In this document: in pieces, positions 22,411 through 52,100 of the stretch
Position numbering within the stretch: the first letter of the stretch is position 1
How the letters are laid out: every line of letters starts with the position of its first letter
Source: a virus
Length of the DNA stretch: 53,606 nucleotides
IMG/VR virus record: IMGVR_UViG_3300013212_000047
Coordinates: 1 to 53,606 of that record
Direction: 5' to 3' (one strand)
Program-made: the position numbers and the translations under genes
Notes under the pieces: model-generated
What the model saw: only the letters and a program-made list of their open reading frames with translations
Databases searched by the model: none
Told to the model about the DNA's origin: nothing

Positions 22411-22764
22411 ATCTGAAGCGGAAGGGGTACCGAAGGGGTCACGCTAACACACAAGCCCAGCTCTACTAGAGGCAGACAACTACTCTACCGCGTAGGAAAA
22501 AATTTTTGGAGGGGTAAACCGCCTGTTAGTAGGTGGCTGTGGGTCTAGGCGTTGGGCTGCGCTAGGTGGTTAGCCGGTGGCGGTGCTAGGGCTACGGGGG
22601 TTATGCGTGGCGTGTTAGAGCATTGTGTAGGCGTTACATCCGGGCGCGCGTCTGTAGCGTAGCGTAGGATCTGCGCACGGTGGGCTGGCCAAGGGGTAGC
22701 GGGCTGTGTGGGTTGGCCAATTGGTAGCGGGCTGTGTGGGAGTACTTGGTGAACACGCAGGTAA
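22411..22764. other. Non-coding G/T-rich stretch with a 28-base direct repeat
   Basis: No gene seen. The plus strand turns strongly G- and T-rich from about 22500 after an A/C-rich stretch at 22040-22130. Two copies of TGGCCAA-NN-GGTAGCGGG plus CTGTGTGGG lie at 22686-22712 and 22714-22740, differing only in two central bases. GGAAAAAATTTTTGG (around 22495) is a small palindrome. Confidence 0.65.
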
Positions 22765-22917
22765 ATGCAGTTACTGTATAGGCTGAAAATTGCCGTTAAT
22801 TTATCGCTGGCATTTGTTGCGATATTTTGCGGGGCTGCCTGCGTTTTACACCTCTGCCCTTTTGTTTTGCGTCATTTGTCGTATACTGGCACTGGGTTGG
22901 ATTATATTGAAGGGTAG
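22765..22917 (+). CDS. Possible small membrane protein
   Basis: 50 residues starting MQLLYRLKIAVNLSLAFVAI and rich in Cys, Leu and Phe to about residue 35: one membrane segment or uncleaved signal. The ribosome site (AGGT close to ATG) is weak. It ends 6 bases before the next gene. The region also looks like a diverged copy of the cassette promoters (GCAGTTACTG..., AATTGCCG), so it may be partly regulatory. Confidence 0.35.
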   Translation: MQLLYRLKIAVNLSLAFVAIFCGAACVLHLCPFVLRHLSYTGTGLDYIEG

Positions 22918-22923
22918 ATAGTT

Positions 22924-23223
22924 ATGAATCATGATTTGTACGGTTACGCGTTAGGCCGTCGTCCCGGCACCGTTGTCCCGGATACCTCGTTGGAAGTCGC
23001 GCGTTGCGCTGTCTGCGATATGTACGGCGCCTGCAATGATGTCCGGGTGGTCTGCTATGCAGATATGCCTGATGCGGGCTATGTCGGCAGGGTTTGGCCT
23101 GTCTGTGAGTCTTGCCAGTATGCGGCCGTGTATGGCTGTGAGTGTGGCGTGTGTGGCTATTGTCGGAGTATGGAATTGGCGCGTCTGCGCTTTCAAGCTA
23201 ATGAAGGGGTAAAGGTTGTTTAG
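22924..23223 (+). CDS. Cys-rich (zinc-binding) island protein
   Basis: 99 residues with ten cysteines: RCAVCDMYGACND, VVCYADM, VCESCQYAA and GCECGVCGYCRSM. Spacing suggests two zinc sites of treble-clef or ribbon type. No named family recognised. GAAGGG lies 11 bases upstream of the ATG. The codons are G/T-rich, unlike the core genes. Confidence 0.7.
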   Translation: MNHDLYGYALGRRPGTVVPDTSLEVARCAVCDMYGACNDVRVVCYADMPDAGYVGRVWPVCESCQYAAVYGCECGVCGYCRSMELARLRFQANEGVKVV

Positions 23224-31167: not shown

Positions 31168-31286
31168 TGTCTCTACTAATCTGGTGCCTGATTATTGCAG
31201 CATCATTGGTAGTACTTGTGCCATTCTTTGGCATTGTGTACATATCCTACATTGTGGAGAATGACGTACGGAAATACGATGAGTGA
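31167..31286 (+). CDS. 39-residue membrane protein
   Basis: 39 residues, MSLLIWCLIIAASLVVLVPF followed by FGIVYISYIVENDVRKYDE: one long membrane helix and an acidic tail. Start overlaps the previous stop (TAATG) and its end overlaps the next gene by 8 bases, so its position is tight. No family recognised. Confidence 0.6.
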   Translation: MSLLIWCLIIAASLVVLVPFFGIVYISYIVENDVRKYDE

Positions 31287-31842
31287 TGAAATAGTCCACA
31301 TCGCTTTGATGCCTGACTCAGTTCAGGTATCGGAGATCGGTGTTACATTTGCCGGTGACGTCTCCTATGATGACTGGCTGCGCTTGATGGGTACACTGAC
31401 ACGGCTTGAAAAGGCCGTGCAGTTTGCCATCGGTGATGCCATCAATTACGGACAACACCGTTACGGTGAGAAGTACAGCCAAGCCATGGAAGCAACAGGT
31501 CTAAGCATCAAAGCCTTGACTAACTACTGCTGGGTTTCCAACTCTGTACCGATCCAGAATCGCCGAGCTGGAGTTAGCTGGACACACCATCGTGCTGTGG
31601 CTAAGCTTCCTGACCACGACCAGATCTCATTACTCCGTCAAGCGGAAGAACAAGACTGGACAGTAGACGACCTAAAGGAAATCGTTACAGGGAAACCTAT
31701 CAACCCAAGACACATTGAAACAGTCTTTGTTCCAACAGGAATAACACCAGCTCACGCTCAAGAAATCCTCAGACAAGTAGCAAAGTCCGAAGAATGTATG
31801 GCTACATTGTGTGAGACATGCCCGTTTAGGATGCAACTATGA
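31279..31842 (+). CDS. Conserved phage HTH-like protein with C-terminal Cys motif
   Basis: 187 residues from ATG 31279. AIGDAINYGQHRYGEKYSQA, then SIKALTNYCWVSNSVPIQNR and SWTHHRAVAKLPDHDQISLL form a pattern I know from many phage and plasmid proteins (helical, SWSHH-VA-L), probably DNA-binding. The end ECMATLCETCPFRMQL holds a C-x5-C-x2-C-type metal motif. It precedes the initiator gene, so it may regulate replication. Confidence 0.6.
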   Translation: MSDEIVHIALMPDSVQVSEIGVTFAGDVSYDDWLRLMGTLTRLEKAVQFAIGDAINYGQHRYGEKYSQAMEATGLSIKALTNYCWVSNSVPIQNRRAGVSWTHHRAVAKLPDHDQISLLRQAEEQDWTVDDLKEIVTGKPINPRHIETVFVPTGITPAHAQEILRQVAKSEECMATLCETCPFRMQL

Positions 31843-32675
31843 TCAAGATCATCACAGGTAGTGAATGGTCAAACCAAGAAGGCAGCCTCGTCGTACAGAT
31901 GACGCTGTCTTCTGCATTTACTAGCCAACTAAAACAATTTACACCAACCACATGGATGGTACTAACTGCGATTATGTTTCAGGTCAAGCAAAGCAATGCT
32001 GTAGGGCTGTCTGTGCGCGAAATACGCGAGATAACTGGCATTTCTGAGACAACTATCAGGGATGCCATACAAACGCTCTGTACGGTCAAAATACAAGACC
32101 AGAGAGTACTTATGAAGGTCACTCGTAAGTTTGATGATGGCGCATGCAATAGGAACCTTTACGTCATCATGCCATCACAACGCGACCTGTCCTACTTTGT
32201 AGGTACCTCAAATTCTGAGGGGGGTACCTCAAATTCTGAGGAGGGTACCTCAAATTCTGATGACCATATAAGCTTACTTTCTGTAAGTAACGCTAATTTA
32301 ATTAATTATATTCCCCCTATAGTCCCCCATAAATCAAAACGAAACATCTCGATGCCAAAGGATGATGATCCTGCTGCACAGATGTATCGGTCATACCGGC
32401 AAGTAATGGGCTTTCCAATTGAGTTCTCACAGGGGGAATGGCAAGGTGTTCATTTAGTTCTGCGGGAAATGATTCGAGCTGGTGTCACAACAGACGAAGT
32501 AGAGCGGCGAACACGTAACCTTCTAAACCAATGGGAGAAGAAAGCAATGGTTACAGTCAGAGCATTATGGAAACACTGGTCATCAGCTGGAATCGCAAAG
32601 GCTACCGGATATGACAAAGCTAGCGAAATATCCTCAGCAGCAATCGCAGCACTTAGGTCACTGAATAATCATTGA
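31839..32675 (+). CDS. Replication initiator candidate (winged helix, lambda O-like position)
   Basis: 278 residues, ATGA overlap. The N-terminal 110 residues form a winged helix (WMVLTAIMFQVKQ, LSVREIREITGISETTIRDA), then a low-complexity linker GTSNSEGGTSNSEEGTSNSD encoded by 21-base repeats, and a C-terminal domain with SQGEWQGVHLVLREM and ALWKHWSSAG. The layout (DNA-binding head, repeat linker over an A/T-rich stretch, helicase-loader contact tail) mirrors lambda O-type initiators, and loader and helicase genes follow. Confidence 0.7.
   Translation: MIKIITGSEWSNQEGSLVVQMTLSSAFTSQLKQFTPTTWMVLTAIMFQVKQSNAVGLSVREIREITGISETTIRDAIQTLCTVKIQDQRVLMKVTRKFDDGACNRNLYVIMPSQRDLSYFVGTSNSEGGTSNSEEGTSNSDDHISLLSVSNANLINYIPPIVPHKSKRNISMPKDDDPAAQMYRSYRQVMGFPIEFSQGEWQGVHLVLREMIRAGVTTDEVERRTRNLLNQWEKKAMVTVRALWKHWSSAGIAKATGYDKASEISSAAIAALRSLNNH
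32202..32330 (+). repeat. Iteron-like repeats and A/T-rich stretch: candidate replication origin
   Basis: Three copies of GGTACCTCAAATTCTGAGG start at 32202, 32223 and 32244, an exact 21-base period; the third ends GATG. Each carries the inverted repeat CCTCA/TGAGG. An A/T-rich stretch follows (32265-32325, with TTTAATTAATTATA). Iterons next to an A/T-rich unwinding site inside the initiator gene is the lambda-type origin design. Confidence 0.6.
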
Positions 32676-32700
32676 CAAAAATACTTGCTTGCTGTACTTT
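32672..32700 (+). promoter_or_regulatory. Sigma-70-type promoter of the loader-helicase unit
   Basis: TTGACA (32672-32677), 17 bases, TACTTT (32695-32700). TACTTGC (32682-32688), the complement of GCAAGTA, lies in the spacer. The initiator stop codon overlaps the -35. A 40-base leader with AAGG precedes ATG 32741. Confidence 0.75.
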
Positions 32701-32740
32701 ATGTGTGTTGGTTAGTATTGGAAAGAAAAAGGTAACTTAG

Positions 32741-33223
32741 ATGCTTAATTTGACAGAATCGTCAGAGATCTTAGATCGAATCGTTAATCTCCATCAAGAT
32801 GCAAATCACATTGACCTGATGGTTGTAGCTACAGGTGAACTTCACTGGTTGTTTGGTGGCAGGTTGATCAAGACAGAAACCAGGACTTACCGCCATGACT
32901 TCGACGTTATGGAAGTTCAGTTTTTGTTTCAGAAACCATTTGACACTGAGTTTGATGAAGACGGCGACTACATGGCGCCAACGGAAAAGCAGCTTGCTGC
33001 ACACAACATGAAGCTTATTTTTGGTTTCAATAGCGGTAGAGAATTTGATTACATTGGTGGTTGCAGGATGGCGGATATCTTTATTCGGAACAGCGGCGTC
33101 CTTCAACACAAACACATTCGCATTAATGAGACCAAACAAATTCCTTGTTTGGAAATTCTTGAATGGGCAATGAAAATTGATCTAGCAGAGAGAGCATTAG
33201 ACAAGGAAAGGGCTAGGGTATGA
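32741..33223 (+). CDS. Hypothetical protein of the replication unit
   Basis: 160 residues, MLNLTESSEILDRIVNLHQD at the start, with LHWLFGGRLIKTETRTYRHD and an acidic patch, ending in a helix (LAERALDKERARV). No family recognised. First gene behind the promoter, ATGA overlap with the loader candidate. Confidence 0.65.
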   Translation: MLNLTESSEILDRIVNLHQDANHIDLMVVATGELHWLFGGRLIKTETRTYRHDFDVMEVQFLFQKPFDTEFDEDGDYMAPTEKQLAAHNMKLIFGFNSGREFDYIGGCRMADIFIRNSGVLQHKHIRINETKQIPCLEILEWAMKIDLAERALDKERARV

Positions 33224-33741
33224 CAGAGCAGATCTTCGCACGAGCAGCTAACATCTTAGCTATCATGCCTAGTAACATCGAATGGGATGAGCGCAGCAAT
33301 GCGCTCTATGCCTTCTTTATGTCTGACTGGAATGACGATCTGGTAATGGCTACGATGAAGAAAGCCTTGTACGACTGCAAGTTCCGCCCAACAACATCTG
33401 AACTTGCAGAGATTGCATTCTCAATCATCAAGCCACATAGCAATAAAGATCTAATGTGGGACACAATCACAGACATCACGGTTAAACACATTGAGAATGG
33501 ACGCAATCACGCATTGCAAAACAGGATCAATGATGGCAAGGCTGATCCAATGACACCTATGCTTGTTGAAGCTATGGGGGGATGGGGACATATAGGCCGC
33601 CGGTCTACTGATGACAACAAAGAACGTCTCAATAGAGCTTATAACCAGGTGTTACAATCCATTGATAGAGAATCACTATTTAAGGCACCGATAAACAGGC
33701 TACAAAGTGGGACGTCGGAGACAAAACAGATTGATCATTAG
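33220..33741 (+). CDS. Helicase loader candidate
   Basis: 173 residues, helical: ARAANILAIMPSNIEWDERS, ALYAFFMSDWNDDLVMATMK and KFRPTTSELAEIAFSIIK resemble the N-terminal helical domain of phage loader and inhibitor proteins of DnaB-type helicases (G39P type). No ATPase motif, so it is not a DnaC-type loader. Its place two genes before the helicase supports the role. Confidence 0.55.
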   Translation: MTEQIFARAANILAIMPSNIEWDERSNALYAFFMSDWNDDLVMATMKKALYDCKFRPTTSELAEIAFSIIKPHSNKDLMWDTITDITVKHIENGRNHALQNRINDGKADPMTPMLVEAMGGWGHIGRRSTDDNKERLNRAYNQVLQSIDRESLFKAPINRLQSGTSETKQIDH

Positions 33742-33997
33742 TCCTGGCATATGCTTGCAAGGACTTTCTGATCACCGAATAGCTATTGAAGCCCTGCTGG
33801 AATTTACTGCTGTATGTTGTAGCCGTAAAAACCACAGGGTTTTTAGGAAATTAGTCTCTAAAATCCAAGCGGGGGAAGGCAACCCAAGCGACGTGCTTTA
33901 CCAAATGGAATATGCAATAGACCAATACGCCCAACAGAATGGCTTTTGGTTTGGACAAAACGAAGATGTACCAGATGAATGGGGGTTCTATGAGTAA
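33731..33997 (+). CDS. Small hypothetical protein before the helicase
   Basis: 88 residues if it starts at TTG 33731 (GGAG 10 bases upstream, overlapping the previous stop). Helical, with IEALLEFTAVCCSRKNHRVF and an acidic end (NEDVPDEWGFYE). It overlaps the helicase gene start. No family recognised. Confidence 0.55.
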   Translation: MIISPGICLQGLSDHRIAIEALLEFTAVCCSRKNHRVFRKLVSKIQAGEGNPSDVLYQMEYAIDQYAQQNGFWFGQNEDVPDEWGFYE

Positions 33998-35306
33998 GAT
34001 TCCTCCTCACCACATAGAAAGCGAAATGAGTTTACTTGGAGCCGTCCTGTTGGGCGGCTCTAAAGTCTTAGCCCTAGTTACAGGGATAGTCCCTGATGGA
34101 GGATACTACTACAGAGAAGCGAACGGCATCATCTACGATGCAATGATACAGATATCTGATACACAACCAATTGACATCGTCACACTCAGCGAGAAGCTGT
34201 CAGCTGATCGAGTACTAGACAGCGTTGGTGGAATTGGATATCTGATGCAACTTGGTGAATTTGTACCAACAACATCACATGCATCTGCGTATGCAAAGAT
34301 CATCCGTGAACACAGTAACAGGCGTCGTGTTATCGAAGTATCGATGGACGCTATCGACAAGGCATACGAGTTAGACTCTGACCCTCAATCAATCACTGAT
34401 GACATCAGCTCTGCATTAACCAATGAGACAGCCAACGCTAACACATTAGATGCAAAACACATAGATGATTCTATAGCCGATGTAATTGAGGAGATAGAAA
34501 GCCGTGATGCCGATCACAAGATGTCCGGCATAGCGACTGGATGGAAGTCATTAGATACATTGACAGGTGGATGGCGTAAAGGTGAGTTGATAGTCGTAGG
34601 CGCTCGTCCTAGCATGGGTAAGAGTGCTTTTGCTCTAGCATTGTCGAGGAGTGCTACTGGCGCCGGCCACAAGACGTTATTCGTATCTGTTGAGATGAGT
34701 ATAGACATGACAACTCAAAGGCTTTTAGCCCTTGAGACTGGCATAGACCTACGACGCATCTCCAACTCAGCGTTAACGCAAGAAGAGATATATCGTCTCA
34801 GATGCGCGCGAGCTGATCTATACGACATACCGCTATTCGTAAGCGCCAAAAATCCTATGACCATAGGTGACGTACGTAGTGTGGCTGTGCGTATGAATGC
34901 AAAGCACGGATTAGACATGATTGTCATTGACTATCTACAGATGATCGAAACAAAGGGTGTTAACCGTGTGAGTGAGATCGGAGCGATTAGCCGTGCGTTG
35001 AAAGGCCTGGCTCGCGAGATGGACGTGCCAGTCATGGTGTTATCTAGCTTGAACCGAAAGAGCGATACACGAGACGATAAGCGACCAGTCATGTCTGACC
35101 TCAGAGAGAGTGGGGACATCGAGAGTGATGCTGACATAGCGTTATTCCTGTATAGACCATCGTATTACATGAGCGGTGACCCACCACCTATCGATGAAGT
35201 CGAAGTCATTATCAGGAAGAACAGGAACGGCCCAATCGGAACAGCAAGCCTAGAATACAATCCATCGATCGGGCGCTTTAGTGATTTGAGTTACGGGGGA
35301 CTATGA
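33990..35306 (+). CDS. dnaB: DnaB-type replicative helicase
   Basis: 438 residues from ATG 33990, with GGGGG upstream. The N-terminal domain PPHHIESEMSLLGAVLLGG is typical of DnaB; the ATPase core shows Walker A GARPSMGKSAFAL (about residue 204), SVEMSIDMTTQRLLALETG, Walker B MIVIDYLQMIE (about 310), SRALKGLAREMDVPVMVLSS and LRESGDIESDADIALFLYRP. It is the hexameric fork helicase. No primase or polymerase is seen, so host enzymes probably follow it. Confidence 0.96.
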   Translation: MSKIPPHHIESEMSLLGAVLLGGSKVLALVTGIVPDGGYYYREANGIIYDAMIQISDTQPIDIVTLSEKLSADRVLDSVGGIGYLMQLGEFVPTTSHASAYAKIIREHSNRRRVIEVSMDAIDKAYELDSDPQSITDDISSALTNETANANTLDAKHIDDSIADVIEEIESRDADHKMSGIATGWKSLDTLTGGWRKGELIVVGARPSMGKSAFALALSRSATGAGHKTLFVSVEMSIDMTTQRLLALETGIDLRRISNSALTQEEIYRLRCARADLYDIPLFVSAKNPMTIGDVRSVAVRMNAKHGLDMIVIDYLQMIETKGVNRVSEIGAISRALKGLAREMDVPVMVLSSLNRKSDTRDDKRPVMSDLRESGDIESDADIALFLYRPSYYMSGDPPPIDEVEVIIRKNRNGPIGTASLEYNPSIGRFSDLSYGGL

Positions 35307-35644: not shown

Positions 35645-35738
35645 CGCCGGCATTCTTCATAGGAATACCTTGCTTCTTAGCAATCTTTGCTTGGACTGCC
35701 GCAAACCCTGGGTGTGCGGCAGTTTTTGTTTTAGTCAT
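35568..35738 (-). CDS. 56-residue basic protein
   Basis: 56 residues, MTKTKTAAHPGFAAVQAKIA then NAGAILAASSRKASPAAKKL and a basic end. This HPGF...AILA...R.ASP..KK pattern occurs in small phage proteins of unknown function, probably carried with DNA. Start overlaps the giant gene's stop (TAATG). It overlaps the convergent regulator by 77 bases. Confidence 0.65.
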   Translation of the reverse strand: MTKTKTAAHPGFAAVQAKIAKKQGIPMKNAGAILAASSRKASPAAKKLNPRLMKVK

Positions 35739-38700
35739 TATTTAGTTCCTCTAAATATTTCAGATCCCCTACCTTGTCCTAGTAGTTTGATAACACTAGG
35801 TGTGTCTTCGTCACCGTAGTAGTTAGTAGTTCGCTTCTTGGCCTTGATAGCTTGTTGTGGTTTAAGTTCAACCTTCAGACCAACGTTGTTTAGTACAGTA
35901 CTAACTGAAGCGTATAGGCCAGCATTCTTCTCCCATTCATCAGCAGCTTGAAATGTTTCCATCATCTGTGAAATACCAGTTGGGAGACGCTCAGTAACTG
36001 CATTGCTAAACCTTACGTCATCCATCCATGGAGCGTATCCTCCATTGTGTTCAATCAAGCGTGGCTTGATGACGTTTTCGTAGAAGTACGCTGATGCTTC
36101 ATTTTTACCAAAGGTCGGCTCACCGATAGGTGTACGTCCACTAACAAACCAGCTGCCGGCCCAGTTGTAAAGCGGTGAAGCTTTGTACTGCAGTTCGCGA
36201 TGTATATCCGCAAACGTATCGTACATAACATTGGAACCAGTCTCTCTAGACTTCTTTTGTTCAGCTGGCGTTGCCAGCATAGCAGCTGATAGCAATCGGT
36301 AACCTAATCGGTAATGATCAAACACGCCAGCTGGTGCATCCATACGGAAGTCACCAACACGAACACGTCCGATGTTACGGTCGATGTTGGTTTCGACGTC
36401 CATGTCATCTGGAAGGAAGTTACGGATCATCTGTGACAAGATCATCAAGAATGCCCATACTCCAACAAGTCTTCCCCACATTTGTTTACCAATAGCCGCT
36501 GCTGCACGATCGCCCTTATACAAGTCAAACACAGGGTTATCTTGCCCCATAATGTCTCGCATGAAGCCCATATGAGAACTAGACAACACTGCATTCATAG
36601 CGGGGTCGATAAACATCCTTGACAGCAACCAACGTGGCGCCGTAAACAGTACCTTTGCTACCCGGCTAGCACGTGCATCGTATACCGAGTTAGTGGAGTA
36701 TTTGATATCACCGACACTAACCGCAAGTATCCGAGCTGAATCACGGAGCGCAACTTTGTACTTTTCTGTTCCTGGCTCGTAGCCGTGTGCCATCAACGAC
36801 TTCTTCATCTGGTCAAATTGAAGCAACAGGATCGTGTCATGAATAAGGATGTTGTAACGCTCGAACATACCCTGACCTGGGAGGTGACCACTCAGACGGT
36901 TTTTCATATACCACTCGTCGTTGGTTCCCAATTCATCGATGTCCATCAACGTTGTGCGTACATCATCAACTGTTGCTTCTGGATTCCACAAACGCAGATT
37001 GTAAAGTTCACGCTCGCGGACTTCATCAAATCGCTTATCAATTTCAAACATTGAAAGCGGCAACTCTGCCTCTCGCGCTTCTTCGTAGACATCCATATCT
37101 CGCAACTTGTTGCCATACTGATGGAACTGCTCACGTCCAAGCTTACGGTAACCAACCTTTTGTCCGTTTGGTAGTTCAATCTGCAAGTTAGGCATCATGC
37201 CTCGCATACCAGCAAGAAGTGCTTTGAAGCCGACAGCTGGGTTAGTAAGGAGGATGATACCGGCCTGGAGCGTAGTGAATGCAAAGTCAGCAGACAGTGT
37301 AAGGCGAGTAATATCATTCATCTGGTCAATGATGTATCCACCCATGTCAGCTACGTTGACTGGTTTATTTGATGCAGTGCGTTCAGACTTACCTGTAACA
37401 CTGGCAGTTGGCTCAACATCACCCCAGTCATAAGCTATCTTTACCGGAGGTCTAACAACTTCATGTGCAATATCTAGTTCATCACGTGAACTAAGCATGA
37501 CAGACAACACAGGGCCAGTGCGATCAGCCTTTTTCTTTGTGTCTGCTGTATTCCATTTATCCAATGACAATGGCGCAATACTGTTACGTGGGATCGATAT
37601 GTTTTGTAACTCATGGTTTCCACCAACACTGTGTTTGACGTTCAATAGCATTATGCCATCTCGTGTCGGATGCTTCTTGTACAAAGCTTCAACATCAGCA
37701 GCAGCAATACCACGTCCACCCATATCAATAACCACAGGGTTATCCATACGTACGTAGTATGGCTTGTTATTAAAACCAGACGTCTTGCTTACACCAGATG
37801 GCATGACGTACGCATGAGCCGAAGGAAGCCACCTAGCTGTTCCATCACCAGGGACATAACCAATAGAAACTATAGGCTTACCTGTCCTCGGACGTACACT
37901 TGCTCTGTCGTACATCATTTTGTCACGCATGAATGACTTAGCTTGGGTTCCTGCCACACTGTTTAGTTCGTTAGAAATACCAGCGTAGTAAACTCTATTG
38001 GCGGTGTTATCTGACGCAACGTGTTCTGCAACACGTTTAATATGTGTTGGAGAACGCTCGCCACGATAGTAGTCATCCATCGCCACAATAAGCTCTGCAA
38101 CGTCATCATCTGTAACAGTAGCGTCTTCCATTTCATCTAACTTACGTAGAATCTCCTGGCCAGACATGTGTTTACGAATAGCCTTTGTCTGTGTTGGACT
38201 AAGGTCTTTAAGAGGGACATTGATACGGCTGTCGTCAGATACAACACTCTCGATTAACGGAGCGCCGTTAGACCAACGCTTAAACTCTGGGGATTCTGTC
38301 CTTGCATAGTGTGCAATCGCGCGCGCTGGGGACATACGAAGGACGTTGGTATAAACATGATACGTATGTGATGCGTTTCCTCTAGCATCGTAAGCGCCAA
38401 CTACCTTGTCATCAGCGTCAGTCTGAATACGACCAGATTTATCAAGCTCTGCGTATCCTTTACGGACTTGTGATTTTACTTCATCAGTCCCCAATGTTGT
38501 GTCAGTTACAACATCTAGTGTTTCAACGTTAATCAATGGTTTACGCGATGAGAACATAATGGACTTAGGCACATCAAGACTTGCCATCCGCTCATTTGTA
38601 CCGCTAATTCCATTGATGATCGCAACTGTCCACCAATGTCTACTTGGGACGAGAATGTCATTCAAGTTCAGCAAGTCTTGTCGGTTGAAGGTGCGACCCC

Positions 38701-41700
38701 ATGGTGTATTCATGTTCGCAACAACAGGTGCGTCTCGCCATTCACCATCAACGTTAATGACTGCTTTACCAGTAAGCATATTAACTTTGACGGTTCCCTT
38801 TGGATTGTCAGTTGTACCCTTGGACTTTACAAACGTGACAGTCTGCGGATCGTCAACGCGCATCTCAGGAAGAAGGAAGCGTCGGTATTCACCACGTCCA
38901 GTATCAGCGCTAAGTTGCCAAATCTCTGATACAGCCCTGGAAGCTTCAACTAGACTAACTGACAAACGACTACGTAGATACGTTTCAATATTGGTGATCT
39001 CAACCTCATCTTTGAATCTATGTGGTGCGTCAATTTCTTTTATACGGTTAGCAATTATCTTCTTTACGGCTCGATCTAAAACATCGGCAGGATGCATCTC
39101 ATTTAGATCTCGATGCCAAATACCAGACCGATCTCCGACTACTCCCCCGATAACATTACGCACAGCATCAATTGCTTTCCTGATCTCTTCAGGGAAGTGC
39201 TCAACTCTAACCTTCCTGTCAGAACCAAGAGAATTAAGGAAGTGTGTCACGTAACTACTTGGGTCAAAGAATGCTCGCATTGTTTGCATAGGTAACAAGC
39301 GATCAGCTACAGGTAACAACGGGGAGTAAAGTGCAACAGGCTTGCCAGTTGCAACATGCTCAAGCACTTTGCCAAACACTTCGCCAAATGTCTTAGCATC
39401 ACCAAGGTAGTCAGGTTTCAAGAACTTAGCCACTTCACCATTGTTTGCAAGTTGCTTGACGACGTAGTCGCCATCGAGGTTATTCCAGACATGCGTAGCG
39501 TAAGCGTACAACTGATCTATTCCTGATGCAGTAGTGCTACCTGACTGAGTACTAACCCTGGACACGTCATACGTGCCGTCAGCTTGTTTAAACCTAGACA
39601 TCAAATACGCTATGCGCTTTATGTTGTTCTTCTCACTAATGTTGTCATACGACAAATCAGTCCCTGTTCTTGGCCTTGCCAATTCAGCTTCTACCTGTTC
39701 AGCTGTATATCCAAGGTCATTGTTTATGTAGCGTTTAATAGCGTTAATGATCTCTGGACGTTTCAAGATTTGAGCGTACTTGACATCATTTGATGCACCA
39801 TCATAAGCAGGACTAGCCTGGATGTATGAATAGATATCAAATCCCAATACATCTTGTGAATCTCTACCTCTAGACATACCACTCGATATGACACGCTCAC
39901 CACGTCCTGCGTCACGATAATCAAATCGACGTACGTTATCCGAAACAATGATATTGCGATTAGGAACACCAAGTGTTTTAGCTAGGTCAATATTAGCTTC
40001 AATAGACTTCTGTGACATTCCAGGGTAAATGATGTAGATAGGTTGACCTGCAACACGGTTAGCTGGAGTATTTGCCTTATATGCATCAATATTGGTGTAC
40101 TTGAAGTCGTCGTCAAGCTCATCACCTGCATCATCATCGTCGCCACCTGAATCGTCAAGATCACGTTGAGTTTCATCACTGAATCCATCAAACGCTTCAG
40201 GTGCTGCCTCGCGCATAGCTTCGTCAGTACGTGTGTAATAAGCCCCAAGATAGTCACTTAGTACTGACAGCATCTCAGGATTAAGGCCATTTGTATAACC
40301 TCCGTACTTAACGATCTTGTCTTTTGTAATTTGCGACACATCCCCGGATGCATCTTTGACGACAACTACATTTGGAGGCAATGCCCCATACTTATCCTTG
40401 TTACGCTCATACGAGTCCATGTCTGTAGTAGAGGTGACGTTTACGGTAACTAGTGCATCTTTACCATCTGCACCTTTGATGACAAGTTGCGTACCCTTGT
40501 ACAGTTTACTTTGGCCGTCGTATGGCGCCTGCCATTCAACAAGCTGCTTATTGTCAATGAATCTACGTGTTACGTTTTGAACTGTTGCATTCAAGTAAGA
40601 TGACGAATCACGCCAAAACGTTGCAATGTCCTTGTTTGGTTTACGGAATTGCGCTTTGTTGGTTTCGCGATTATAACCACGGAATATCCTAGGCATTGAG
40701 TTGTTGCGAATACTAGCTATGAGCATTCCTACAACTTCTTCTTCTACGGATGCAGGCACATTGTCAAAATCAATGTTCATGTTTTTGATGTTGGAACGCA
40801 GCCCTAGATAGAATTTCTTACGTTCATCTGGAGTCATGCCACGTAGCAACGCATGAAATACTTCATGCATACCATCTTCTACACTACGTGCGGATAAACC
40901 AACAATAACACTGGATGACATACCTTCTGCAGCAGCTCGTTTAAAGACAAGGGCATTAGCCATAGCATCCAATGCTGGTGCATTGCGCAATAAAGCAAAC
41001 GATGCCAATCGTTCTGAATAGAACTTGCGCATGTAGAACGCGACACTTTTAGCAGCATCGTTATCTGTAGACAAGATAGATCTAGTTACCCCATCTTCAA
41101 TTATGTTACCTTCTTCATCGTAAACATCAGCCGTTTCATCTTCACGACGTTTAGTCTCTAAGTCTGACGCAGAACCAGTAATCCTAGACTTCCGAATATT
41201 TAACTGCCGCATCGCCCAGGCACGTGCAAAATGATCAACGATACCACCAAAAGCACTAGCGCCTTCAGGGCTAAAGTTGTATTGCTCAATCATGACTGTC
41301 TCAAACTGATTACGGTTTCTAACAGTCGTAGCGTCAACCTCAACACGATTACCGTAAAGTTCGGTGGTAATTGTCTCGATTTGACGACTATTGTTTATGT
41401 CACCATATTCAACTCTTAGAGGCCGTGATTCCGAAGCGGTTCGTCGGGTTCGTGAACGCCCAGTAGCACCACCATCGCGGTTATATGCAGCGTTTACCGC
41501 AGCCTTACGTGCTTCCTCAAGCTGTTCTTTTAATGCATCTAATTCAGCTTGTATTGCAGCAACTGTGTCTGCATATTCCTGTTCACGTCGCTGTCGTTCA
41601 GCTTCAATAGCAGCTAATTGCTCATCAATAACGCGCTGTTGTTCAGCACTAATAGCTCGACCAGATCCAATCTCATTTAGACGTTCTGTAAGCGTAGTCA

Positions 41701-44700
41701 TGTTCTGCGTAAGCAGGCTAATTGCTTCTTCTACAGCAGCGGTATTCGATGCATTCTGTGGAGTGCCGTTAGTAATGATTGTCCGCAGATTCTGCATCTG
41801 CGTTTCGTACTCTCTTGCCTGGCGCTCCAACTCACGCTGCAATGTCTCTGCAGCCTGGCGTTGTTGCTCTGTAGCCGCTCTTTGTGCTTCAGTTGTTGCA
41901 CGATTCATATCAGCCCGTAGCTGATTCATTTCACGCTGCAATGCCTGTTGTGCAGTACGTGCTTCCTGCTTGTCCTTATTAGCTTGTTCCTGCAGATCAG
42001 CTAGTCTCTGTCGCGCTTCATTGAGACGGGTAGTGTTTTCGACCTTAAGGCGTTCCACCTCAACTTCTGCTGCGCGTAGCTCAGCATTTTGTTGTTGAGT
42101 TCGGCGACGGAGTTCGAGGTTTGCATCAAATCGTCGGGCTGCTTCGGCTCTATCACGCTCTCGTTCAGCTTCCCGTTTAACTCTTTCTTCTTCACGAGCG
42201 GCAAGCCTTTCGGCTGCCTTAGCTTCACGCTCATCTGCTTTACGCTTCTTTTCAAGATCGGCTGCTGATGGTGCTTCAATATTAGCTGTTGCCAACCAAT
42301 TGGCGTCACGAATATTTTGACCAGTCGCGTACTGAACAGTACGTTGAATAGCTGTATTGACGGCAACACGGCGATCAGTGCCAGCTGCTGGCGTGTATAC
42401 CGCTTCAGGTGTTCTTGCAGGATCAAATCCATCGACAGCATTATGTACATCAAATGATCCATCAGGCTGTGCAATGATTACGTACTCTGTCTCAAACGCA
42501 CGTTTAGGCGCACCCTTACCATCTAGTTCTGTAAGCTTGACACGAAGTCCAAGATGACCGTCTTCTGTCCTATAAATAGTTCCATCTACATTGCTATATC
42601 GTGTACGCGCAACGAAAGATTGAGACGTTGAAGCTTCAGTCCCAGCTAGAGTATCTCTAGCTGAAAACATAACCTCTGGCAAATCTTCGGTTTCAGCTTC
42701 AGTGCCGGCTTCAGGTGCTAATGGTTCACCTTCAGTTTCAGCTTCAGTGCCGGCTTCAGGTGCTAATGGTTCACCTTCAGTTTCAGCATCTACTTTACCT
42801 TCAGGTGTAGACAGGTCGAACCGATCAAGTAAAGACGAAAAGTCAATAGTATCCAGAGCAGATGTTAACGATGTACCGAGACGAGTACGTGTAGTGGATG
42901 ACAGTTCAATAATGTCAACACGATCAGCTGTAATACCAGCTGCTGCTGCAATATCACCTGTATCTTCGCCGTCAACAGTACCAATGGTTCCGTCACCGTC
43001 TACATCTTCACCTATCGCTGATTCAGCTGATCCAGGAGTAATATCATTACCTAAGTGATCGCCAACAATTTGACTATTTTGTACAACAAACGCACTCTTG
43101 GTTGGGTGATCGACAAGTCTTACAAAATAACCCCTATTGCCCTTACCAACAACGATTGCTACAGCACGTCCAAATTCTTTAGTCTGTACATCAATAACAT
43201 CTGCGCGACTGAAACGGTCATCTGCAGGTTCAAATTTTAGATCACCTTCAATATCCTTTGCTACATTAGCTCGGTAAATTTCAAGTAATGCATTGCGCTT
43301 TGCCGGGTCTTCCTCAGACTTATATGCATCCCACTCAGCGGATCTAGCACTGCGCCCACGACGAAGTAATCGCATCTGGTCATCTGTAAGTTCAACGACT
43401 TCTGCATTACCAGCACCTGATGCATCAGCAAACCGCCATTGATTAGGCCCAATACGTTGCTTTGGAGAAAGTTCAGCTAACGATGAAGGAAGGTCTTCAT
43501 CACGCACCATTCCGCGCACATATGGTTTCCCAGCATCATCTGGGTTAATCTGGGATTCATTTAAACGAATGTGAGTACCATCAGGCAACGATACTACATA
43601 CATGCCTTGACGGTCGTTACCAACCTGTTTTACAACGCGACCTGGAAACAGGGGTAGATCGTTTGATAGCAGTATCTTGTCCTTGAATATGCGTGTGTCT
43701 GCATTGTCAAAAACATTTGGGTCAAAATTAGCTGGCTTAGCATTAGGGGTCACACCTTGTGCTGTAAGGACTTCACCTACACGCTTACGGATTTGCGCAT
43801 TACCAATTGATGTAAGAGGTACAACTTGAACACGGCTGCGTCCATCACGATTTACGTCACGTACAACAATTCCAGCATCACGACTGATACCAATTACATT
43901 ACGTGTTATCCCACTTCGGCTATCGGTGTATGAGATTACAGGTTGACGTTTGAATAGATACATCACAGTTTGAAGGCGCTCGGCTGCAGAAGCAGATCTA
44001 CGTCCTTCAAGTGGAAATTCGTTATCTACATAAATGTTAGCTTTACGTGCCTTAGGGTTATATAGCGCGTACTCAGCACCACGAAGAATAGGTCGCCCAT
44101 ACTCATCTGTATCGCCGGTCAGCTTTCCTCCTAGGTTTAATCGTATAAAACCATCTCCGGCCTCTGATGGAATACTTTCAGCCATAGGCGCTTTAGCTGC
44201 CCTAGATTCAAGTATATTGTCACGTCTTTCGGCTAGCTTACTAGCAAGATAACGCGGATCCATCGCTTTATCGGCTAAGCGGAAAGCTTCTTTACCAAGC
44301 GCTGTTTCACCACCAAGCAAGGCACCAGTTAAACCATCACCAATAATTTGCCATGGAGAATAACCATCTCCACCAGCAGCCCTATTACGTTCGGACTGCA
44401 TGTAAGATTCGTACATGCCTTGTGCTGCTTCAATAGATCGGTCACCAAGATCACTTACTGTCTTATTTACACCAGTGTTCTTGAGCGCGCGTGTACCTTT
44501 TTTAGACAACTGGTCAACAGCAGCTTTTACACCAACGCCTGGTATCTTTAGTGTTGGCTTGAAGAATGCAAGGTCACCAGCAAGTGAACCCAATCGGCTG
44601 GCAAGCGGGTATTCATAAGCGTTAGTCTGGCGAAATTCTGTTCTAGCTGCATCTGCTGCAGAACCGAGCAGAGTACCAAAGGCCTTGTTGTTAATAGTCT

Positions 44701-45580
44701 CGTTGATAGATGTACCAAGTGTGCCTCCACCAGCTGAACCTAACAGTCGCCCAGCAAGTATCCCAACGCCCCTATACTTCTTAGGAGCCAACGCTCCCAA
44801 AGCTACGCCAATACGCGAACCGCCTGAGCCACCAATGATAGTGCCTGGCATAGTGGAAAGTCGCTCTTGAAAACCAGATCCAAAGGCAGCTCCAGCATCT
44901 TGAAGTGGTTCTTCACCTTGTTGATATGCTGCTTCTGCACCAATGCCGCCGGCATTTGTAAGCTTGTCAATCGCAGCTTCAACAGGTTTATAAAAACCCT
45001 GGGCCATACCAGCAGCGATTTGTGGAGCTTGTTTGAAACCTATGCCAAGATCACGAAGTGTGTAATTACCTGACGCTACATCAAAGTCAGTGCCACCAAT
45101 AAACGCAGCACCTTCCGGCGCACGACCACGACTAGCAGGGCCAAAACGCTGGACGTCAGATCGGTCGTACCCTAATTTACCTAAGTACTTTTCTTCATCA
45201 GCTTGAATCTGCGGTATCTGTTCACCGAGATATTGTTTGTAAGCTTGACGCTTACCTTGGATAGATTCAGCTGATAGGTCTGGGCGATACTCATTTTCAG
45301 GAGTAAAGTACTGCCGCTTCTCTTCATCATTAGCAAGCACCAAAGCTCGCTCTGCTTTAAACGTTGCGAGCTGTTGGCGTGTACCTTGATCTACAAGACC
45401 ATCTTTATATAAACCGTCAACGGTATTTTTGAAATCACGGGAAAACAGAACTCTGTCATACCGTGAAGCATTTGCTATGTAATTTAATGCACCATCTTTG
45501 GTAGTAAGGTCAGGCTGACTATATACCAAGTTATTGATAGCATTTGCACGTTGATCTTCCGTTGGACGTCCTATACGCAT
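35738..45580 (-). CDS. Giant polyvalent virion protein with metallopeptidase and ART-like regions
   Basis: 3,280 residues. In order: Gly-rich hydrophobic segments (about 230-460); an acidic repeat TEGEPLAPEAGTEAE twice (about 930-965) from a 45-base DNA duplication; a very long coiled coil rich in Arg, Glu, Gln (about 1105-1360); zinc-peptidase motif HEVFH at 1572-1576 (MHEVFHALLRGM); an acidic linker; a region at about 2530-2700 with YYVRMDNPVVIDMGGRG and DGIMLLNV that resembles ADP-ribosyltransferase-like polyvalent domains; and a C-terminal domain with KVLFTAPRWLLSRMF and a hydrophobic helix near 3046, as in other phage polyvalent proteins. Such proteins enter the host with DNA and may disarm defences. 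No RNA-polymerase motifs seen. Confidence 0.85.
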   Translation of the reverse strand: MRIGRPTEDQRANAINNLVYSQPDLTTKDGALNYIANASRYDRVLFSRDFKNTVDGLYKDGLVDQGTRQQLATFKAERALVLANDEEKRQYFTPENEYRPDLSAESIQGKRQAYKQYLGEQIPQIQADEEKYLGKLGYDRSDVQRFGPASRGRAPEGAAFIGGTDFDVASGNYTLRDLGIGFKQAPQIAAGMAQGFYKPVEAAIDKLTNAGGIGAEAAYQQGEEPLQDAGAAFGSGFQERLSTMPGTIIGGSGGSRIGVALGALAPKKYRGVGILAGRLLGSAGGGTLGTSINETINNKAFGTLLGSAADAARTEFRQTNAYEYPLASRLGSLAGDLAFFKPTLKIPGVGVKAAVDQLSKKGTRALKNTGVNKTVSDLGDRSIEAAQGMYESYMQSERNRAAGGDGYSPWQIIGDGLTGALLGGETALGKEAFRLADKAMDPRYLASKLAERRDNILESRAAKAPMAESIPSEAGDGFIRLNLGGKLTGDTDEYGRPILRGAEYALYNPKARKANIYVDNEFPLEGRRSASAAERLQTVMYLFKRQPVISYTDSRSGITRNVIGISRDAGIVVRDVNRDGRSRVQVVPLTSIGNAQIRKRVGEVLTAQGVTPNAKPANFDPNVFDNADTRIFKDKILLSNDLPLFPGRVVKQVGNDRQGMYVVSLPDGTHIRLNESQINPDDAGKPYVRGMVRDEDLPSSLAELSPKQRIGPNQWRFADASGAGNAEVVELTDDQMRLLRRGRSARSAEWDAYKSEEDPAKRNALLEIYRANVAKDIEGDLKFEPADDRFSRADVIDVQTKEFGRAVAIVVGKGNRGYFVRLVDHPTKSAFVVQNSQIVGDHLGNDITPGSAESAIGEDVDGDGTIGTVDGEDTGDIAAAAGITADRVDIIELSSTTRTRLGTSLTSALDTIDFSSLLDRFDLSTPEGKVDAETEGEPLAPEAGTEAETEGEPLAPEAGTEAETEDLPEVMFSARDTLAGTEASTSQSFVARTRYSNVDGTIYRTEDGHLGLRVKLTELDGKGAPKRAFETEYVIIAQPDGSFDVHNAVDGFDPARTPEAVYTPAAGTDRRVAVNTAIQRTVQYATGQNIRDANWLATANIEAPSAADLEKKRKADEREAKAAERLAAREEERVKREAERERDRAEAARRFDANLELRRRTQQQNAELRAAEVEVERLKVENTTRLNEARQRLADLQEQANKDKQEARTAQQALQREMNQLRADMNRATTEAQRAATEQQRQAAETLQRELERQAREYETQMQNLRTIITNGTPQNASNTAAVEEAISLLTQNMTTLTERLNEIGSGRAISAEQQRVIDEQLAAIEAERQRREQEYADTVAAIQAELDALKEQLEEARKAAVNAAYNRDGGATGRSRTRRTASESRPLRVEYGDINNSRQIETITTELYGNRVEVDATTVRNRNQFETVMIEQYNFSPEGASAFGGIVDHFARAWAMRQLNIRKSRITGSASDLETKRREDETADVYDEEGNIIEDGVTRSILSTDNDAAKSVAFYMRKFYSERLASFALLRNAPALDAMANALVFKRAAAEGMSSSVIVGLSARSVEDGMHEVFHALLRGMTPDERKKFYLGLRSNIKNMNIDFDNVPASVEEEVVGMLIASIRNNSMPRIFRGYNRETNKAQFRKPNKDIATFWRDSSSYLNATVQNVTRRFIDNKQLVEWQAPYDGQSKLYKGTQLVIKGADGKDALVTVNVTSTTDMDSYERNKDKYGALPPNVVVVKDASGDVSQITKDKIVKYGGYTNGLNPEMLSVLSDYLGAYYTRTDEAMREAAPEAFDGFSDETQRDLDDSGGDDDDAGDELDDDFKYTNIDAYKANTPANRVAGQPIYIIYPGMSQKSIEANIDLAKTLGVPNRNIIVSDNVRRFDYRDAGRGERVISSGMSRGRDSQDVLGFDIYSYIQASPAYDGASNDVKYAQILKRPEIINAIKRYINNDLGYTAEQVEAELARPRTGTDLSYDNISEKNNIKRIAYLMSRFKQADGTYDVSRVSTQSGSTTASGIDQLYAYATHVWNNLDGDYVVKQLANNGEVAKFLKPDYLGDAKTFGEVFGKVLEHVATGKPVALYSPLLPVADRLLPMQTMRAFFDPSSYVTHFLNSLGSDRKVRVEHFPEEIRKAIDAVRNVIGGVVGDRSGIWHRDLNEMHPADVLDRAVKKIIANRIKEIDAPHRFKDEVEITNIETYLRSRLSVSLVEASRAVSEIWQLSADTGRGEYRRFLLPEMRVDDPQTVTFVKSKGTTDNPKGTVKVNMLTGKAVINVDGEWRDAPVVANMNTPWGRTFNRQDLLNLNDILVPSRHWWTVAIINGISGTNERMASLDVPKSIMFSSRKPLINVETLDVVTDTTLGTDEVKSQVRKGYAELDKSGRIQTDADDKVVGAYDARGNASHTYHVYTNVLRMSPARAIAHYARTESPEFKRWSNGAPLIESVVSDDSRINVPLKDLSPTQTKAIRKHMSGQEILRKLDEMEDATVTDDDVAELIVAMDDYYRGERSPTHIKRVAEHVASDNTANRVYYAGISNELNSVAGTQAKSFMRDKMMYDRASVRPRTGKPIVSIGYVPGDGTARWLPSAHAYVMPSGVSKTSGFNNKPYYVRMDNPVVIDMGGRGIAAADVEALYKKHPTRDGIMLLNVKHSVGGNHELQNISIPRNSIAPLSLDKWNTADTKKKADRTGPVLSVMLSSRDELDIAHEVVRPPVKIAYDWGDVEPTASVTGKSERTASNKPVNVADMGGYIIDQMNDITRLTLSADFAFTTLQAGIILLTNPAVGFKALLAGMRGMMPNLQIELPNGQKVGYRKLGREQFHQYGNKLRDMDVYEEAREAELPLSMFEIDKRFDEVRERELYNLRLWNPEATVDDVRTTLMDIDELGTNDEWYMKNRLSGHLPGQGMFERYNILIHDTILLLQFDQMKKSLMAHGYEPGTEKYKVALRDSARILAVSVGDIKYSTNSVYDARASRVAKVLFTAPRWLLSRMFIDPAMNAVLSSSHMGFMRDIMGQDNPVFDLYKGDRAAAAIGKQMWGRLVGVWAFLMILSQMIRNFLPDDMDVETNIDRNIGRVRVGDFRMDAPAGVFDHYRLGYRLLSAAMLATPAEQKKSRETGSNVMYDTFADIHRELQYKASPLYNWAGSWFVSGRTPIGEPTFGKNEASAYFYENVIKPRLIEHNGGYAPWMDDVRFSNAVTERLPTGISQMMETFQAADEWEKNAGLYASVSTVLNNVGLKVELKPQQAIKAKKRTTNYYGDEDTPSVIKLLGQGRGSEIFRGTK

Positions 45581-48693: not shown

Positions 48694-49127
48694 TATGCCA
48701 CCTTGTACCAAGCGTAAGTCGTTTCAGAGTTAATACCAATGAACGTAGCTGCTGAGTTTTGTGCCATTAGCCCTGTAAAACCAGACGGGACAAACAAAGT
48801 GTCACCTGACTGTGCAGCAAATGTAATAGCGTTGGCTGTTGAATCTTTTTTAACCACAACTACAAGTTTACCAACAGCGGCTCCAGATCTAGGTAATGTA
48901 ACTAAAACAGCTGCTGCTGTAGCATCTGCAATCACAAAAGTAGATCCTTCCTCTAAGCTAATACCAGCCGTCACTTCATAGATCTTGTAGTTAGAGGGAG
49001 TGTATACAGGAATAGGTGTACCAAATTTAACACCTTCGTCAATCGTTACCATTGACGCGCCAGGCTGTATACCACCGATACCGATAGCGTCCGGCGCCTC
49101 TCCACTTACAGGTGCTGGTATGGGCAT
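48693..49127 (-). CDS. Small structural protein next to the tail hub
   Basis: 144 residues, beta-rich: YEVTAGISLEEGSTFVIADA, LVTLPRSGAAVGKLVVVVKK and ITFAAQSGDTLFVPSGFTGL suggest a small beta-helix or sandwich like those in phage head or tail decoration proteins. Overlaps both neighbours by single-stop overlaps. No family recognised. Confidence 0.65.
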   Translation of the reverse strand: MPIPAPVSGEAPDAIGIGGIQPGASMVTIDEGVKFGTPIPVYTPSNYKIYEVTAGISLEEGSTFVIADATAAAVLVTLPRSGAAVGKLVVVVKKDSTANAITFAAQSGDTLFVPSGFTGLMAQNSAATFIGINSETTYAWYKVA

Positions 49128-52100
49128 TAGTTAACTCTCGCAATTCTTGAATCTTGTGCATGTATATGTACGCCTAGCAGTCGCATCGATGTGCGCGTAG
49201 TACCAGACAAAGCTACTTGAAACAAAGGAGCCAATACGTCACGTGACACATTCCGTATAGCAACTGGTCTATTTACACCCGCAGGGAACGTCCATGTAGA
49301 ACCAGTAGAAATACCTAGCGGGTTACCAGCAGATGCATATGTACCCATTTGATTCTGGACAGACCATGAAACTTGTTGGGAAACACCTGTTTTTGCTGTG
49401 CGATATCCACTTACTGTAGGAGACACGGCTGTGCCTCCAGATGACGTACTTATCTGATACGTCGTGTTTGTCCTGGCTATTACAAAGTACGTAGTGTTTA
49501 CTGTCACGTTACCAATAGTAGAGTCATACACCAACGTGTCACCAACCACGAAGTCATTATCACCAACAATCGTAGTGTTGCTAGCAGTGAAATTGGATAA
49601 CACTGTCACGTAATTGTTAGCGTAGTGTAAGTTGACTTGTGAGACACGGTTGAGGTTGTAGTACGCAATTCCTTCGCTGTATGTCTGGCCATGCTGCCTA
49701 CTCAACATACTCCAAGGAATGTCAGCAACAGTCCCACCAGTACCTCGATCACGTGTGCCAGTTAGCTTGTATATTTGACCTGAGTTGCCATCGTTGCCTG
49801 CAACGTAAAACTCTTGCGTGTCGTTACCAGCTGACATTGCTACGCCATTAGTAAACCTAATAAAATCAGTATTAGCTGCGTTACGAAGTGGTCTCCATCT
49901 AGTCCAACCCATCGTACGGAAATCCAACACATACACATAAGTGTTTGCTGATTGTGGATCAGTACTGCTAGCTATAACATCACCCACACCAGGAGCAAAT
50001 ATATAAAGCCTTTGATTATGTAATGCATAAGTAATACGCCTATACGCAGCATTGTCTAAGTCAGGAGCATTCATTGACTTATCGAGTGAAAGCATCTTAC
50101 GTAGTTCGATGGAGCGTTGTTCAATTACTCCATCATTAAACTCGACCATACCAACAGGTGTTTGCCACAGCAATCTACCAGCAACACTAACAACAGCGTT
50201 AGGCGCTATGCAACCAGATGATGGTTCACGGATCATAGCCTGAATGGTAAACGTAGATGGATTATAACCGAGCATAGGCAATACGCTATTCTCACGGAGT
50301 ATGAGCATGACAGCTGTAGAGCTATTGCTCATAATCATATTGTCGCCACCGTAAGGAAGTAGTGCTACGACTTTTTCGTTATCGTCTTTTGACGAGATGG
50401 TAAACGACGTTCCCTTGTATGCATTGGAGGGGTCATTGAAGTCCGGAACCCAGGTACTGTAGACCGCAAACTCGTTTTGCACGTCAAGGATCCACGACGC
50501 ATAAACCGTGTTGTCTTTGACTGTCCACAATCTATTCTGGTGTACTGCAATACAGGATGCTCCCGACGGCATCGGATCGCGTCCTTGTTGGTAGATCTGA
50601 CCCTGATCATAAGGCGCTCCCTCATAGAACAAGTCTCCATCAGGAACGTTATCAGCAAGACTAATCATATTCCAACTTACACTACCATTAGTCTTAGTTG
50701 TAAATGTGCTAGTCCATTTAGTACCAACAATGCCGGCATCCAAAGGAACACAAGCAATAAGCCTGAATCTACCATCAGTAAAAACAGTAGTACTACGACG
50801 GTAGACAAGTGCGTGGCTGTATTGAGGGTGAATGTTTAGCGTTGTCGTACCACTAGCCGATGGCGTCAATACTGTCCCACCGTACGTTGTACTTATGCTG
50901 AATTGATCTTTAGTCAGACCTGTTGCAATTACGTAATACGTTGTGTTTGCTACAATGTTTCCTACTGTAGTAGTAAACTTAACCGGGTCACCAGCTCTAA
51001 ACTGGTTAGGTGTAACAATCAGGACATTACCGCTTGCTATGGTTACAGTCTTTGTACCAAACGTACCCCATGGGACAGAATGACGCATGTATATCGTACC
51101 GACTTGACAAGCCATAGTGTGTACACCACTAGGGATAGATCCAGCGATAATCGGAGCGCCACCTTTAGTTGCTGACAATGTAATAATTGATGACGTAACC
51201 GACACTATGTAGTAAACGGTATTAACTGCAAAGTTTGTAGGCAACGCACCAGTAGTCGTAAACTTTACTGTTGAGTTAAGTAATGTGCGCGTGGTGTCAA
51301 ATGTACCACTTATGTTGGCACTACCATTTGTAAACGTTACGGTATACGAATCCCCCGTAAATGTCTTTGCATACCAAAGAGCGTTGGCTGTATCAACTCT
51401 AAAAGGCGTATTTGCAACAATTGAACAAGTGATGTCGGCAGAGTTACCAGTGTTCCTGTAAACAAACGAGCCACTAGTAGATGACACAATATCTATCTGG
51501 TTGACTTCAGGAACGACTGACGTAAAGTATGACGTTGGAGATGAGCCTTGTATTGAAATCTCTGTTGTGTCATACCGAATATCGTAAGGCAAACTTTCAT
51601 CTGGATTCAGAATGATAGACATACTACTAAATGCTTTAGTAGAGAGGACAGAGTTCGATGAGTTAGATGAGTCAGACTCCATACCTGTCTGACTAACTTC
51701 GTTTACCCTATACGTTGGTGGACGCAGGTTAGGCTGATCTGAGCTATACCACCGCGTGAACAAGTAATCGTACGTAGCGTTAGATGTCAACCTACCGTTT
51801 ACGACAAGCTCACCAATATTGAATATGACGTCGTTGTGATTTAGAGTAGATACGTCTTGTTCTAAACGTACGTAAACGTACTGAACGTTAGTTCTTTTGT
51901 CTTGCGCAATAGGATATATATTCCAGGACATATAACCCTTGGTTGGATCGTAGTCGCCAAACCCAGACCATGTAATAGCTGTAGCACCAACCCCTTTAAT
52001 ACCAAGCGAGGTGTATGGAGGAGATGCTTTTAATGCGTCAGGGAAGTCCATCTTCATACTGATGTAGTCTTTGTTTGACCAATCGCTATCTGGAATACTG

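Follow-up and report, generated by a model that had tools for sequence, protein, structure and literature searches.

The block at positions 32202-32328 of a 53,606-base virus record (analysed over its full length, here called the window, and belonging to a tailed phage as judged from its portal, terminase and head proteins) is, as far as can be read from the sequence, very probably a replication origin carried in the linker-coding part of the initiator gene, since selection acts on the DNA itself there, as is shown by comparison with relatives. The original prediction had placed an origin within this gene, and it is now supported by the constant position of the block in 14 genomes, by codon conservation, by the retention of DNA in two reading frames and by the absence of the block from a sister clade. 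The repeats, the A/T-rich stretch, the order of the genes, the predicted folds and the selection on DNA rather than on peptide are established here.

Three iterons with an exact 21-base period occupy 32202-32264 on the + strand, as had been noticed at the outset: iteron 1 (GGTACCTCAAATTCTGAGGGG, 32202-32222), iteron 2 (GGTACCTCAAATTCTGAGGAG, 32223-32243) and iteron 3 (GGTACCTCAAATTCTGATGAC, 32244-32264), with bases 1-17 identical in all three copies. Their common GGTACCTCAAATTCTGA starts at 32202, 32223 and 32244 (start-to-start distances, 21 and 21) and forms the sole 16-mer block present at least three times in the window. No further iteron copy was found in the 53.6 kb with up to three mismatches allowed, matches in shuffled windows averaged 0.12 with 0 of 100 shuffles reaching three, and a search of all viral contigs for the exact 17-mer gave no match. 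All three iterons contain the palindrome GGTACC. An inner inverted repeat had been ascribed to each of them, which is correct for iterons 1 and 2, where CCTCA-AATTC-TGAGG is complete, but not for iteron 3, in which TCA/TGA is retained and the right arm has been lost. Inverted repeats in the window's linker nonetheless exceed those obtained by synonymous-codon randomisation (0 of 400 equalled the observed value). In the frame of the open reading frame 31839-32675 the iteron is read as GGT ACC TCA AAT TCT GAG GGG, confirming that the same bases also encode a GTSNSEG linker.

The A/T-rich stretch expected after the iterons lies at 32263-32312 (+ strand; 78% A+T), ranks second among all 50-mers of the window, has a counterpart in 14 of 14 long-linker genomes (see below) and is a probable candidate for the unwinding element. 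It is followed by the C-box (CCCCCTATAGTCCCCC, 32313-32328, + strand), which codes for PPIVP, shows the highest codon-level conservation of the gene (z = 17.7) and belongs to the predicted origin, so that the origin block is to be extended to 32328. The C-box was also considered as a promoter (TATAGT/TATAAT), an assignment that was rejected because the promoter search gave no promoter-like site. In the linkers of L027, L028 and L048, a G-run after the C-box gives rise to perfect hairpins, e.g. GTCCCCCAACGGGGGAC and GTCCCCAAAGGGGAC, with a loop resembling that of the hairpin of the short-linker clade. A second codon-conserved stretch (CTCTGTACGGTCAAAATACAAGAC, 32076-32099, + strand; z = 14.4), which codes for LCTVKIQD and follows the recognition helix closely, is possibly a further DNA element.

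The gene that houses the block (31839-32675, + strand) encodes a protein of 278 residues, a probable replication initiator from domain prediction and family matches. Structure prediction bears out the proposed winged helix in the N-terminal region (approx. residues 35-112), followed by a low-confidence, probably disordered linker (approx. 122-166), to which the repeats, the A/T stretch and the C-box correspond, and by a confidently predicted helical C-terminal domain (approx. 178-250). The N-domain model can be superposed on winged helices of the CRP type and others, and the top six Foldseek matches include 5kbj, 4pt7 and 4pql (E approx. 0.04, among many winged helices), which are plasmid RepA_N initiators; the RepA_N domain PF06970 does not appear in the Pfam listing of 18 initiator family members. 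HTH_36 (PF13730) was detected in 17 of these 18 (best E = 3.2e-10), the window's own initiator being listed with weaker HTH families only, and PHROGs of the 'replication initiation' type were matched by up to 18 of 18. The window's protein matches phrog_678 ('replication initiation O-like') weakly (E = 8.5e-4), which was counted against the origin, whereas its relatives reach 1e-8 and better with O-like PHROGs.

The initiator gene adjoins a conserved upstream gene (31216-31842, + strand), which gave a weak ParB-HTH-like match only and served as a marker for finding relatives. Loader and DnaB-type helicase genes had been predicted downstream, and the order initiator, G39P-type loader, DnaB helicase is indeed present, the helicase (33939-35306, + strand) being recognized by PF03796 (E = 1.4e-81), PF00772 and phrog_19, and the probable loader (33220-33741, + strand; 173 residues) being assigned by model similarity only. 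The loader model resembles viral models named G39P N-terminal, replisome organizer and replication protein P (best E = 9.9e-4); its sequence gave no convincing Pfam, PHROG or solved-structure match, and a fold search of the PDB returned nothing. Further along the window, two proteins of 3280 and 1440 residues (35738-45580 and 49127-53449) are without any PHROG match. Searches of sequenced phages with the window DNA, the initiator and the upstream protein gave no match, and no bacterial genome carrying the initiator family or the upstream gene was found, so that no host is assigned.

It is unlikely that the true origin lies elsewhere in the window, e.g. in the G-rich stretch at 22.45-22.92 kb with its 28-base repeat or at the skew minimum. 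The extremes of the cumulative GC skew do fall at 18.3 kb (minimum) and 35.5 kb instead of 32.2 kb, a point counted against the block; however, both fall where the gene strand switches, which makes the skew uninformative as evidence of an origin. As for the 22-kb stretch, 2.2 copies of the 28-base unit are present at 22680-22740 where there is no clear gene, but no initiator gene stands alongside, the DNA is G+C-rich and it contains no copy of the 32.2-kb iteron. Phage SPP1 has two origins (PMC6316719), so that a second one might exist here as well. The stretch at 22454-22924 also lies at the margin of a region, 22-26 kb, that stands out in its base composition, G+C reaching 0.56 and T being in strong excess on the + strand.

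Scanning with the initiator (twice), with the upstream gene and with the widened family (once each) yielded 71 distinct initiator sequences, namely 14 with a long linker (46-71 residues; window included), 56 with a short linker (approx. 24 residues) and one truncated copy. In a tree of 33 of the 71 initiators, the long- and short-linker sets are the two sides of a single well-supported branch. The repeat and A/T block occupies the same place in the window and in the other 13 long-linker genomes, and an A/T-rich 36-mer is present in all 14 linkers, where it ranks in the top 0.01-2% of its own locus; the entire block is missing from the 56-member sister clade. In L004, the protein of which is 39% identical to that of the window, GGTACCTCAAATTTTGAGGGA, nearly the window's unit, occurs three times at a spacing of 24 as the strongest tandem array of the 56-kb record and is absent elsewhere in it. 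Other units differ (GGGTATC-AAAAAC-GATACCC in L029, GGTAAA-A-TTTACC in L010, GAGGGTGCAGAAATC(A/G)ACA twice in L027 and L028, GAGGGGACAAATTTTATA-like units twice in L011-L014), so that the sequence, number and spacing of the iterons vary while their position is constant. This variability was counted against the origin. It also means that the phasing by two helical turns, originally read into the 21-base period, is not conserved, the spacing among relatives being mostly 24, also 18 and 25, and that of lambda 20, 24 and 23. No significant repeat was found in L030 and no palindrome in L011-L014.

The comparison also bears on whether the repeats may have arisen merely by tandem duplication and serve only to encode a flexible linker rich in Gly, Ser and Asn, without any function at the DNA level. 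They keep the reading frame and lie in the lowest-confidence part of the initiator model, and tandem duplication yields identical codons for free. Codon agreement between genomes was scored against 300 shuffles, in which codons were exchanged within each genome among identical residues. Across proteins approx. 40% identical, z values of 17.7 for the C-box, 14.4 for LCTVKI and 12.8, 11.1 and 7.6 for the iteron block were obtained, the maximum of the null being 5.2; the absolute values are inflated because the shuffles ignore relatedness, for which reason more weight attaches to how far these stretches stand out from the remainder of the gene. Repeats were compared with a null in which each linker was recoded synonymously with the codon usage of the gene in question: direct repeats exceeded this same-peptide expectation in 13 of the 14 long-linker genomes (p 0.017 or less; the exception is L030), and inverted repeats clearly did so in the window, L004, L029 and L048. 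Furthermore, CCCCCATTACATTGAA encodes PHYIE in L010 and L048 but, in another frame, a PITLN-type peptide in L011-L014, L027, L028 and L030; it is therefore the DNA that is conserved and not the peptide, and such retention in two frames cannot arise from selection on the peptide. With the C-box lying outside the repeats, a role confined to the linker peptide is very unlikely.

Iterons often double as regulatory sites, and the spacing and dyads seen here would be suitable for any protein that binds as a dimer, so the repeats could be imagined as operators through which the initiator, or another regulator, controls the operon, without an origin being involved. We consider this highly improbable, given that the repeats lie 360 bases inside the gene, that the A/T stretch and the position match known origins and that a sigma-70-like promoter, sought at 31700-34000, was not found. 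Action as RNA, with hairpins in the initiator mRNA (CCUCA-AAUUC-UGAGG; G-run/C-run pairing) controlling translation or stability, is hardly tenable, for although short hairpins can form in two iterons and the G-runs can pair with the C-box, the fold z is only -1.3 relative to shuffles, there is no Rfam match and the repeats of L011-L014 and L030 are not palindromic.

Lambda, SPP1 and pSK41 are known examples of an established design in which the initiator gene contains the origin and its linker-coding part the iterons. In lambda, iterons with inner dyads are followed by an A/T-rich stretch in the middle of gene O, the loader gene being next (PMC7466680, PMC6022878). The window shares this layout of iterons with inner dyads and A/T-rich stretch in mid-gene, followed by a loader gene, but it has three iterons at 21 instead of four at 20-24 (spacings 20, 24 and 23), a DnaB of its own and the extra C-box. 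An hhalign comparison of the initiator with one lambda O sequence revealed no homology (probability 0.3%), and the lambda-type arrangement originally proposed is supported as a likeness of design. Genes 38-39-40 of SPP1, known here from the published layout, are the nearer parallel by their initiator-loader-DnaB order. In SPP1, oriL consists of direct repeats and an A/T-rich element inside gene 38, and a second origin with repeats, oriR, is present (PMC6316719). The window resembles it in that the initiator gene contains direct repeats and an A/T element and precedes genes for a G39P-type loader and a phage DnaB-type helicase, and differs in having no second iteron cluster at up to three mismatches. 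The window protein and that of plasmid pSK41 both have a winged-helix N-domain, with the origin (predicted, in the case of the window) in the linker-coding centre of the gene, and RepA_N structures are among the top Foldseek matches. However, the Foldseek E value is only 0.04, PF06970 is not listed for the window's family, and pSK41 is a plasmid and has no loader or helicase of its own. In pSK41 rep the linker is dispensable for the protein, and the C-terminal domain serves for contact with the primosome (PMC5703833).

By analogy with these three systems, we infer that initiator binding, melting, helicase loading and the start of replication would take place at 32202-32328. Dimers of the initiator would contact the three iterons by way of the winged helix, the complex so formed would open the adjoining A/T-rich stretch, and the C-terminal domain together with the G39P/P-like loader would bring the DnaB helicase to the opened DNA. 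What is new is very probably an instance of the embedded-origin design, as predicted here, in a phage lineage for which the searches gave no close relative among cultured phages.

The short-linker clade has conserved elements of its own. Its initiators (L015-L115, e.g. L061:3291-3307) carry in the wing a codon-invariant inverted repeat, TTCTCC-YAAY-GGGAGAA (RTSPNGRTTSNGY; z = 40), with a strong match once per genome. In L071 and L072 the pairing of this hairpin is kept by a double change (C-G to G-C), a compensatory change of weak statistics that represents one independent event, and several G-T pairs are present. Codons 11-18 of the short-linker initiators (e.g. L017 from 4363) form a second codon-conserved stretch, GGCTTGTCNGGTGAG (z = 44). 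Two short-linker genomes were read over their full length, and neither showed a comparable tandem array in or beside the initiator gene. It is conceivable, if rather doubtful, that the origin block behaves as a module in its own right, which members of the family have kept, rewritten or dropped, the long-linker clade rebuilding its iterons in place with shifts of frame and the short-linker clade using another origin signal, perhaps TTCTCC-YAAY-GGGAGAA.

Thus, a very probable origin has been located from sequence alone in an uncultured phage lineage, and a family of approx. 70 distinct initiators shows origin DNA and linker peptide evolving separately, so that the turnover of iterons, their coevolution with the recognition helix and the loss or gain of an embedded origin become testable within one family.
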